The notes beneath the pieces are model-generated. The model made no database searches, was not told where the DNA came from, and saw only the letters and a program-made list of their open reading frames with translations. Made by a program: the position numbers and the translations under genes. Below, piece after piece: positions 20,411 through 23,140 of a DNA stretch of 23,140 nt. This DNA comes from a virus. Position 1 is the stretch's first letter. Each line of letters opens with the position of its first letter. The DNA is taken from the IMG/VR virus record IMGVR_UViG_3300032820_000129, positions 1-23,140 of that record, one strand, 5' to 3'.

Positions 20411-21364
20411 GTGATACAGAGATTACGAGAGTATGCCATAATAGGTATAGCTTTAGGTATAGTCACAAGTGTGGCATTTGGTGAGGATTCCAACATAACC
20501 AATACCACTACGACTACATCTACTGTAACTTCTAATAATACCAACGTAAATACCAATAACAATAATAATGTAAATACAACAACCAGCAACAATAGCAATA
20601 CTAACCTCAATACCAATAACACAACCATAAACAGTACTGCAACAAATACCAATAACAATACTAATGTTAGCACATCTACTAGTAATGTTACATCTAACAT
20701 AACTCAAACACAAAATGTTACTAACACAAATACCAGCACTGTAAATTCTACATCTAACAATACAAATTTATCTACCAATAATAATAACAATGTAAACACA
20801 TCCACATCAAACAGCACTGTAAGTTCACAGAACGTGAATACTAACAACAATAATAATGTTAACAGTTCACAAAATGTGAATACTAACAATTCTACCAGCA
20901 CATCATCTGCTACACAGAAAGTAACACAAAGAATTAAGACCGCCCCTCCGTCAGCAGTGGCTCCTTCCATCATGTCCTATTCCCAGGACCTATGCACTAC
21001 AGGGGCTTCAGCAGCAGTCCAGACACAAATCTTTGGTGTATCAGCAGGTAAATCTGTACGAGACGAAAATTGTGAACGTTTGAAAAATTCCAAAGCTCTC
21101 TACGACATGGGAATGAAGGTAGCGGCTGTAGCCCTACTTTGCCAAGACGAAAAAGTTTTTAGAGCGATGGAACAAAGCGGCAGTCCTTGTCCGTATAAAG
21201 GTAAGATAGGTGCTGAAGCCCAGAAAGCATGGGATGAAAATCCAGAAGACAGACCTGACTGGCATCTTATAAAAGCAGATATGAAAGGGTATGAGTTTAG
21301 AGCTTACAAGAAAAAAGACTTTTGTAAGAAATACCCAACACAAAAGATATGCTTAAAACCCTAA
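20411..21364 (+). CDS. Exported protein: signal peptide, Asn/Thr-rich array, six-cysteine C-terminal domain (317 aa)
   Basis: The GTG start with AGGAG upstream gives a classical Sec signal (basic MIQRLREY, hydrophobic AIIGIALGIV, cleavage expected after SVAFG near residue 24). Residues 28-169 are almost entirely Asn, Thr and Ser with periodic Val/Leu/Ile (TNVNTN, TNLSTN, SSQNVNTN), which could fold as a beta-solenoid or remain an extended spacer. From about residue 170 composition changes abruptly to an ordinary globular domain. It begins with TAPPSAVAPSIMSYSQDLC and contains NCERLKNSKALYDMGMKVAA, LLCQDEKVFRAM, SPCPYKGKIG and KDFCKKYPTQKICLKP. Its six Cys could make three disulfides outside the cytoplasm. 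From memory, similar sequences recur in marine phage genomes without known function. It overlaps the next exported-protein gene by 16 bases. Confidence 0.75.
   Translation: MIQRLREYAIIGIALGIVTSVAFGEDSNITNTTTTTSTVTSNNTNVNTNNNNNVNTTTSNNSNTNLNTNNTTINSTATNTNNNTNVSTSTSNVTSNITQTQNVTNTNTSTVNSTSNNTNLSTNNNNNVNTSTSNSTVSSQNVNTNNNNNVNSSQNVNTNNSTSTSSATQKVTQRIKTAPPSAVAPSIMSYSQDLCTTGASAAVQTQIFGVSAGKSVRDENCERLKNSKALYDMGMKVAAVALLCQDEKVFRAMEQSGSPCPYKGKIGAEAQKAWDENPEDRPDWHLIKADMKGYEFRAYKKKDFCKKYPTQKICLKP
20492..20917 (+). repeat. Asn/Thr/Ser low-complexity array in the exported protein
   Basis: About 142 residues (28-169) are made from variants of NTN, NNN, TST and NVN units, with a hydrophobic residue appearing every few positions. 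Within it, 20822-20847 and 20864-20889 are a 26-base near-identical pair (two differences) offset by 42 bases (14 residues), indicating recent unit duplication. Confidence 0.85.
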
Positions 21365-23140
21365 TATCATTAATCCTACTTAGTAGTTTTGCCTACGCTA
21401 GTACGCCCACCTTCACTGTAGGTACTGACCCCCTCATAGATATAACTTCTACAGGCACAGGATTAAGCTTAGGCGATGATAACATGTCAGGGATGAAAAA
21501 TATCGGTTTCGATTTTACCTTTTATGATCAGACTTTTTCTCAAGTAAATATATCTATGAACGGATTCTTTACTTTCCAAAATAACTTCTCGGTCTCAAGA
21601 TCAAGAAATTACAGATCAGAAACACTACCAGCCACCTCATTTAATTACTCTGTTTTTCCTGCATGGTCAGATTTTATTAGAAGATCATCTGGCAACCAAT
21701 CTCCCTACATACAAACATTTGGACAAACATCTGATACAGATCAATACTTTGTTATTATGTGGGATAATGTTTCTGAATACAGTAATGGATTAAAAAGTAC
21801 TTTCCAAGCTATACTATACGAAACGACTAATGAAATTTCTTTTAGGTATGACGAGTTACGCATACAGAATCACGACATAACTATAGGCTTGCAAGGCAAT
21901 AATGAAGCTGTAACGTATCTGAGATATGAAGACACTGGAAGCACAACCTTTATTGAGACAGATGATTTTAGTGTAAGCACAGCTATTGATGAATCATTTA
22001 GCAATCTTTCTTCTGAATGTTTAATTGATTCTGATTTTAGTGAATTGTGTGATGTGTATGATTTAACAAACTATTCTGAGGAAGAAGACTATTTATATGG
22101 AACAGGGCTTACAGACGCTATGCTGTATGGCTATGACGATGAGGAGGATTTTTATGGATTTGATGAAGAAGATGAATACCTATACGGAGAAACAACTTTT
22201 CTTACGTTTACTGACGATTGGCACAACGATGGTGATAGCTACGATGTTATTACTATCAGTAGTGATATACTTTTTGTTGAGGAATATGATTTAGAAGAAC
22301 CTGTTTTTATAGATACACATTTTGAGTTTACGGATGATTCTTTTTCACCTGATTTAGAAGAAATAAGTTTTATACCCCTTGAAGACATAACAGACACCGA
22401 AGTTATAGATATATTTGAAATACATATAATAGATACAGAAGAAGACTTTCTTATGTTTGTAGAAGAAGAACTTACAGAAGAAGAGTTTGCTGAAGTAATA
22501 GAAGAACATTTTAATGAAGAAGAAGCTATAGAAGAAGAAGAACAAGCACTTGACGAAGCTGTAGAAGAAATAACACCTGACCAAGTAGAGGAAGAAGAAT
22601 TTACTGAAGATGATTTTATAGAACAAGAACTAGAGCTACTAGATAATATAGATGATGAAGAGAAAGATACTAAAAAAGAAAAACGAAACAGAATTAGATC
22701 AATAGTAGCGTCTACTAATTCCCTACTTGAAAGAATAAACCCTAATATAACTGGAGGCACTTCTCAAACTAGCACTACAGTTTCCGTATCTAGCAATACA
22801 TCTGGTGCATCATCATCTCCTATGTCTGTATCTAGCTCACCTAGTATTTCAGATCAGATAGCCTCATCTCAAGCACAGACTAACACTGTCTTACAATCTA
22901 TTAATCTTGTACCTATGCCTGCAATAGGCAATACACCTTCTACAATGATGGCTGAGGTCCAAGTTACAACTATGGATAATCAGATAGAGAGTATGACTAG
23001 CACTATGGTAACAGCATCTGAAGCTGACCAGATAGCAGAACAGATAGTAGCTAGTAACATAAGAGCACAACAAGAACAATCACAACAACAAGAACAAGAA
23101 TCTGGTACATATGATACAGCAGGACAAGCAACATTACTTG
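21349..23140 (+). CDS. Large exported acidic protein with nidogen-like domain, 3' end beyond window (at least 597 aa)
   Basis: The frame is open from ATG 21349 to the window end. It starts with a textbook signal peptide (MLKTLISLILLSSFAYA, cleavage before STPTF). Residues about 20-205 are beta-rich and resemble NIDO-type domains: a VFPAWSDFIRRSSG segment, YFVIMWDNVSEYS, TFQAILYETTNEISFRYDEL and ITIGLQGNNE. Two Cys (224 and 235) follow. Tyr-Gly motifs recur at Tyr250, 260, 269 and 279 in a very acidic stretch. Residues about 365-445 are Glu-rich helix (EELTEEEFAEVIEEHFNEEE), then a short basic patch (KKEKRNRIRS), then Ser/Thr/Gln-rich sequence to the edge. It has no obvious Shine-Dalgarno and overlaps the preceding gene by 16 bases, so translation is probably coupled. 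The function is unknown; an extracellular matrix or adhesin-like role is inferred. Confidence 0.75.
   Translation, partial: MLKTLISLILLSSFAYASTPTFTVGTDPLIDITSTGTGLSLGDDNMSGMKNIGFDFTFYDQTFSQVNISMNGFFTFQNNFSVSRSRNYRSETLPATSFNYSVFPAWSDFIRRSSGNQSPYIQTFGQTSDTDQYFVIMWDNVSEYSNGLKSTFQAILYETTNEISFRYDELRIQNHDITIGLQGNNEAVTYLRYEDTGSTTFIETDDFSVSTAIDESFSNLSSECLIDSDFSELCDVYDLTNYSEEEDYLYGTGLTDAMLYGYDDEEDFYGFDEEDEYLYGETTFLTFTDDWHNDGDSYDVITISSDILFVEEYDLEEPVFIDTHFEFTDDSFSPDLEEISFIPLEDITDTEVIDIFEIHIIDTEEDFLMFVEEELTEEEFAEVIEEHFNEEEAIEEEEQALDEAVEEITPDQVEEEEFTEDDFIEQELELLDNIDDEEKDTKKEKRNRIRSIVASTNSLLERINPNITGGTSQTSTTVSVSSNTSGASSSPMSVSSSPSISDQIASSQAQTNTVLQSINLVPMPAIGNTPSTMMAEVQVTTMDNQIESMTSTMVTASEADQIAEQIVASNIRAQQEQSQQQEQESGTYDTAGQATLL
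22093..22191 (+). repeat. Short Tyr-Gly acidic repeat in the large exported protein
   Basis: Four Y-G dipeptides, each preceded by L or F and surrounded by Asp/Glu, fall at residues 250, 260, 269 and 279, a spacing of 9-10 residues (for example DYLYG, AMLYGYDDEEDFYGF, EYLYG). Confidence 0.65.

Follow-up and report, generated by a model that had tools for sequence, protein, structure and literature searches.

A mobile, apparently undescribed three-gene set of unrelated phages, predicted to direct two proteins to the envelope and to anchor a third in the membrane

Curli systems are known from other pelagiphages (PMC9599517, PMC7029224), in which CsgG, CsgF, and CsgA-B form a multigene exported accessory module that, like the gene set described below, occurs across podo- and myo-pelagiphages. 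Spanins (Rz/Rz1 and the u-spanins) come close in another respect, as the third protein of our set, C, resembles i-spanins in its predicted layout of an N-terminal membrane helix followed by a coiled coil and often lies with its partners near an endolysin gene. Some of the A proteins also resemble spanins in combining a signal peptide with a C-terminal hydrophobic segment. RemA of Flavobacterium johnsoniae (PDB 8gl6), a lectin or adhesin on the cell surface of gliding bacteria (cited in PMC10994853), has an N-terminal head to which the heads of the window-type and the YIYEANQ-type B proteins are related. The family phrog_20531 (function unknown) covers all sampled A domains (46/46, best E=3.7e-17) but names A only, with no function, partner genes, or mechanism attached to it. 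A partial literature search yielded no earlier description of the trio, and the A, B, and C families are otherwise unnamed in the libraries searched. As judged from sequence, A-B-C is apparently a mobile, undescribed three-gene set of which two proteins go to the envelope and the third is membrane-anchored.

The window, by which we mean the whole stretch of DNA analyzed, carries late phage genes and makes up all 23,140 bases of its virus record, so that it has no continuation there. The genes include a major head protein (phrog_267 match, E=8e-51), a head-closure Hc3-like protein, a tail protein, a long protein that resembles fibres, and large proteins without an assignment. The capsid is nearest to those of HTVC033P, HTVC115P, and the HMO-2011 group (49-41% identity). 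A and B are located at the 3' end, with A directly 3' of very large virion-type proteins and with the contig end falling inside B (Table 1). The initial annotation had placed the two genes at these positions, with a 16-base overlap and amid virion-type late genes, and all of this holds, the surroundings being confirmed by the head, head-closure, and tail genes upstream of A. In homologs, too, the two genes generally overlap where they meet, and 13, 31, or 16 shared bases are the commonest cases.

Table 1. Features of A and B in the window.
Feature	Coordinates	Strand	Basis
Gene A, 317 aa, exported protein rich in Asn/Thr, 4-Cys domain at the C-terminal end	20411..21364	+	sequence and homologs
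A Sec signal peptide, residues 1-24	20411..20482	+	sequence; hydrophobic N-terminus conserved
A low-complexity N/T/S-rich spacer	20483..20938	+	composition; no tandem repeat
A conserved helical 4-Cys domain (Cys195, 221, 244, 260)	20948..21235	+	alignments
Overlap of A and B	21349..21364	+	exactly 16 bases
Gene B, exported protein, open at contig end, 597 aa seen	21349..23140	+	ORF and homologs
B Sec signal peptide, residues 1-17, MLKTLISLILLSSFAYA	21349..21399	+	sequence; hydrophobic N-terminus in homologs
B beta head domain, distantly related to the RemA N-terminus	21400..21993	+	structure prediction and profile
B acidic stalk, residues 216-455, 37% D/E, net charge -81	21994..22713	+	composition
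B S/T/Q-rich C-terminal region	22714..23139	+	sequence

The start codon of A is GTG, preceded by AGGAG, and that of B is ATG. Both proteins begin with a Sec/SPI-type signal, with cleavage predicted between SVAFG and EDSN in A and between SSFAYA and STP in B. As 97% of 116 A homologs and every B homolog (109/109) keep a hydrophobic N-terminus, these signals are not a chance feature, and the proposal that both proteins are Sec substrates is supported by sequence as well as by conservation.

Behind its signal, A continues with a tract (residues ~25-176) that consists of N, T, and S to ~80%. Tandem Repeats Finder detected no tandem repeats in it, and the spacing of V, I, and L showed no periodicity (p=0.48). 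Among homologs, the tract ranges from 15 to 275 residues, with a median of 159, and because of this variable length and the lack of periodicity we read it as a spacer. The Asn/Thr-rich array suggested earlier is therefore right in its N/T/S richness but not as an array, and the idea of a repeat protein was dropped for the same reasons. The C-terminal domain follows the motif NCERxKxSK-L-GMKVAAVxLLCQDxxVFxAM-GxPCP, and its four cysteines are invariant in the homolog alignments, as anticipated from the proposal of a disulfide-type domain. The cysteine count of the whole A protein is even (8, 6, or 4) in 114/131 cases, consistent with disulfides formed after export. AlphaFold2 predicted a small helical core for an A fragment, with pLDDT 79-87 at fragment residues ~61-120 and lower values elsewhere, and a Foldseek search of this model against the PDB gave no significant fold match. 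We regard a profile match between A and dynein light chain (E 0.17) as accidental. In at least 10 loci, A has a strongly hydrophobic C-terminal segment.

Full-length relatives of the window-type B mostly comprise 640-710 residues. Their conserved end (WYEP-IY..DN) lies past the contig end of the window and is seen in homologs only; the C-terminal motif was matched in 80/90 complete B proteins, and among the misses two are broken copies and six have the region with variation. We modeled B on the close relative L003, for which a beta structure was confidently predicted for the head (residues ~30-200, pLDDT ~90), and the acidic stalk was of low confidence. The earlier description of a nidogen-like beta domain followed by a long acidic region is thus borne out for the beta fold and the acidic region; Pfam NIDO was not matched. 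The B profile matched the RemA N-terminus with E=5.8e-13, and the window B alone did so marginally (E=0.0011). This match is limited to the head of ~150 residues and leaves out the remainder of RemA with the type 9 secretion signal at its C-terminus; the conserved C-terminus of B is a different motif, and the heads of other B proteins are unrelated to RemA. One of these is the 'NLITNGNFETGNASGWTT' type, for which the annotation of HTVC033P and Votkovvirus reads 'putative carbohydrate binding domain'. When Mosig and L162 were compared, identity was 87% for the A core, 70% for full A, and 36% for the B C-terminus, and the 27% identity of their B heads was at the level of shuffled sequences (26%). 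The predicted head of B is exchangeable between related modules, with A conserved. Apart from one marginal PHROG match in one member, B falls outside the Pfam, NCBIfam, and PHROG families, and Foldseek of full-length B gave nothing useful in the PDB and one uncultured phage protein in BFVD. In a separate observation, the B protein of L147 (8468-10609) has about a dozen C..NPL....CPGYQ.A repeats, and 34/101 B proteins have comparable Cys repeats in a shorter set.

Homologs were collected from IMG/VR with the window B as query (48 loci) and with an A-domain profile, which matched at least 600 viral contigs; 599 of the matches listed were confirmed, and 80 loci were kept. In 126 loci with A, a B-type exported protein comes directly next in nearly all that have room for it, across unrelated phages, and this co-occurrence agrees with the view of the initial annotation that two exported proteins of a late phage operon form one system, against which rare co-occurrence would have spoken. 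Comparison of these loci indicates that the pair is really a trio, with C past the contig end of the window. C was found within 1.5 kb downstream of a complete B in 94/104 loci, and most of the ten loci without a modeled C hold a look-alike with a transmembrane segment plus coiled coil that escaped the C model (such as L128, L126, L121, L084, L131, L107, and L059); in L146, C is present but farther off, and L055 and L158 had neither C nor a look-alike. C has about 77-190 residues, with an N-terminal hydrophobic helix, a coiled coil, and usually the end NPL[AGS]. In L003, past the position that corresponds to the window end, B (664 aa) is followed by a small two-helix membrane protein and then by C. 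The inter-locus distances of A, B, and C correlate strongly (Mantel r 0.68-0.79, 0/500 permutations), as expected under co-inheritance. Pfam, NCBIfam, and PADLOC returned nothing convincing for the three proteins, the PADLOC models of known anti-phage defence families giving weak partial matches only, to stretches of B and C.

Among 50,697 phage records, A was present in 11, namely the Pelagibacter phages HTVC023P, HTVC033P, HTVC115P, HTVC202P, EXVC032P, and Mosig, the roseophages CRP-207 and CRP-810, Votkovvirus S28C10, and two Manatee Spring genomes. A is followed by B and then by C in the pelagiphages. The roseophages and ct7L0027 retain A and C and have B swapped for a different protein, which in CRP-207 carries a clear signal peptide. 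The trio has purM and peptidase M15 as neighbors in HTVC023P, lies upstream of terminase in HTVC202P and beside primase and ribonucleotide reductase in Mosig, and is found between tail-fibre genes and terminase in Votkovvirus S28C10; the neighbors in HTVC115P differ from all of these. The A domains of Mosig, a myovirus, and HTVC023P, a podovirus, are 68% identical, which indicates transfer between phage families. A was not detected in HMO-2011, CRP-345, CRP-13, HTVC103P, and HTVC104P despite the common capsid type. By these sequence comparisons, A-B-C is a mobile accessory cassette common to unrelated phages. Across 84,980 bacterial and archaeal genomes, 23 loci were found, every one of them on a marine MAG or single-cell contig, with mixed taxonomy. 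Six were inspected, most of which had phage genes, so that we read the hits as phage sequence from bins or from infected cells, without taking this to prove the family absent from bacteria. An origin of A and B as bacterial genes acquired by phages is accordingly disfavored.

To address the role, we searched the 41 module-bearing records for endolysin families, leaving out matches inside very large virion-type frames and reading module boundaries in metagenomic records from the locus coordinates. A stand-alone enzyme was present in 16 records, in 9 of which no more than 3 kb separated it from the module, compared with an expectation of 2.2 (P=8e-5, with the relatedness of the records left out of account). 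In the other 7, it was 10-24 kb away, which argues against the cassette being an obligate part of a lysis cassette. Lysis genes and accessory genes both tend toward the edges of late regions, which also counts against a lysis reading. In individual cases, peptidase M15 adjoins the module in HTVC023P, an amidase is near it in HTVC033P, and, by eye, L147 has a GH19-like endolysin just downstream of C, and L162 has spanin-like genes just upstream of A. A GTA-type 3-TM holin was found in only 5/41 records. A lipobox was found in 0/137 A proteins, so an assignment as o-spanin or u-spanin fails, and the lipobox pattern in 12/129 B proteins is mostly inside the hydrophobic signal rather than at the cleavage site and hence not consistent. 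Furthermore, B has no counterpart among spanins, and as ordinary spanins apparently stand beside the L162 trio, the latter is not a spanin replacement.

Taken as a whole, the predicted properties are best explained by a late-expressed, periplasmic, inner-membrane-anchored envelope complex, an explanation that we hold at somewhat less than even confidence. A and B would be exported via the host Sec system into the periplasm late in infection, where A would fold with disulfides and form a base together with C, anchored in the inner membrane. B would project from this base as a long acidic stalk, with its head binding an envelope or surface glycan, and the complex would assist late envelope disruption and release beside holin and endolysin. 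Because of the endolysin proximity and the cases of HTVC023P, HTVC033P, L147, and L162, such a lysis or late-envelope role is ranked first among possible functions, if only tentatively. The inner-membrane type of C and the C-terminal hydrophobic segment of A point to the periplasm and inner membrane rather than to the extracellular space. This bears on the proposal of a curli-like extracellular fibre, matrix, or aggregation system, in which A would polymerize via its Asn/Thr tract and B would decorate the polymer. The Asn-rich tract, the adhesin-like B head, and the curli systems of other pelagiphages (PMC9599517, PMC7029224) had made this attractive, but CsgG (PF03783) was found in 0/41 module-bearing records, with 4/14 control genomes positive; as some of the records are fragments, this absence is strong, not absolute. 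No outer-membrane pore or exporter accompanies the trio within the module, the gene set differs from that of curli, and the A tract, which can be as short as 15 residues and is not periodic, lacks regular amyloid-type subunit repeats. The curli (T8SS) link was therefore abandoned, and a fibre of any such kind is very improbable, the more so as an inner-membrane anchor is suggested for C and for some A proteins.

Superinfection exclusion, which is the main alternative and ranked second, and for which the exported complex would display or position the B head so as to block receptor binding or DNA entry of rival phages, appears somewhat unlikely. It would explain why B heads are swapped and A is conserved, as different heads could correspond to different receptors or competitors, and it fits the accessory nature of the cassette, A being undetected in the five phages of the same capsid type named above. 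Exclusion factors are, moreover, typically membrane-anchored exported proteins. However, exclusion leaves the frequent endolysin proximity unexplained, B is far larger than known exclusion lipoproteins, A has no lipobox, and a late position is unusual for exclusion genes. Improbable, in our view, is also that A, B, and C belong to the particle, for example as an adhesive appendage or ejection accessory whose signal peptides serve membrane insertion at entry. That the genes come right behind those of very large virion-type proteins in the window and that the head is of the adhesin type would suit a virion component, but the signals are of the cleavable Sec type, no convincing structural PHROG was found for A, B, or C, and podoviruses as well as a myovirus carry the trio, with genome positions that are unrelated (beside RNR/primase in Mosig, upstream of terminase in HTVC202P). 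The neighbors in HTVC023P, Mosig, HTVC202P, HTVC115P, and Votkovvirus differ, so that the trio has no conserved place in the head and tail gene order, and by this gene order virion membership is unlikely.

It is conceivable, though we remain rather doubtful, that the putative envelope complex represents a previously unrecognized machine of marine phages, composed of a conserved disulfide-domain and inner-membrane base with swappable adhesin or carbohydrate-binding heads on an acidic stalk, and exchanged as one unit between podo- and myoviruses. If true, none of the known systems for lysis, exclusion, or secretion would have an equivalent of it. The cassette occurs in phages that infect the ocean's most abundant bacteria, and the HTVC023P type has been described as widespread (PMC9599517). 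Exported multi-gene cassettes common to unrelated phages usually signal a strong selective benefit in the infected cell, so that the cassette offers a concrete starting point for learning by what means SAR11 phages manipulate the envelope of their host or break it.

Describing A-B-C also unites hypothetical genes, including two annotated as 'lysozyme' without an enzyme-like sequence. CRP-207 gp73 (L056:3292-3873) and CRP-810 gp51 (L054:9204-9626) carry this label and are read here as C proteins; the label is a probable mis-annotation. A small EF-hand-like, two-helix membrane protein without a PHROG match adjoins C in a roseophage (L056:3870-4226) and in a T4-like contig (L147:10619-11062) and is possibly a further partner or a holin. 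Between B and C of another T4-like contig (L146:2970-4887), three additional exported proteins are encoded, along with a transglutaminase-like (Peptidase_C93) protein. One of the exported proteins, with 141 residues (phrog_37374), matches 180 Vibrio phages, and in the one examined, the T5-like phage Ceto (L163), small exported proteins like those of L146 lie directly upstream of holin and endolysin. Finally, a related membrane-anchored protein is encoded near the trio in three T4-like contigs (L146:5644-6222, L152:10799-11362, and L162:4895-5476); it is DUF1353-like by eye, and the L146 copy belongs to the tail-assembly-chaperone PHROG phrog_1158.
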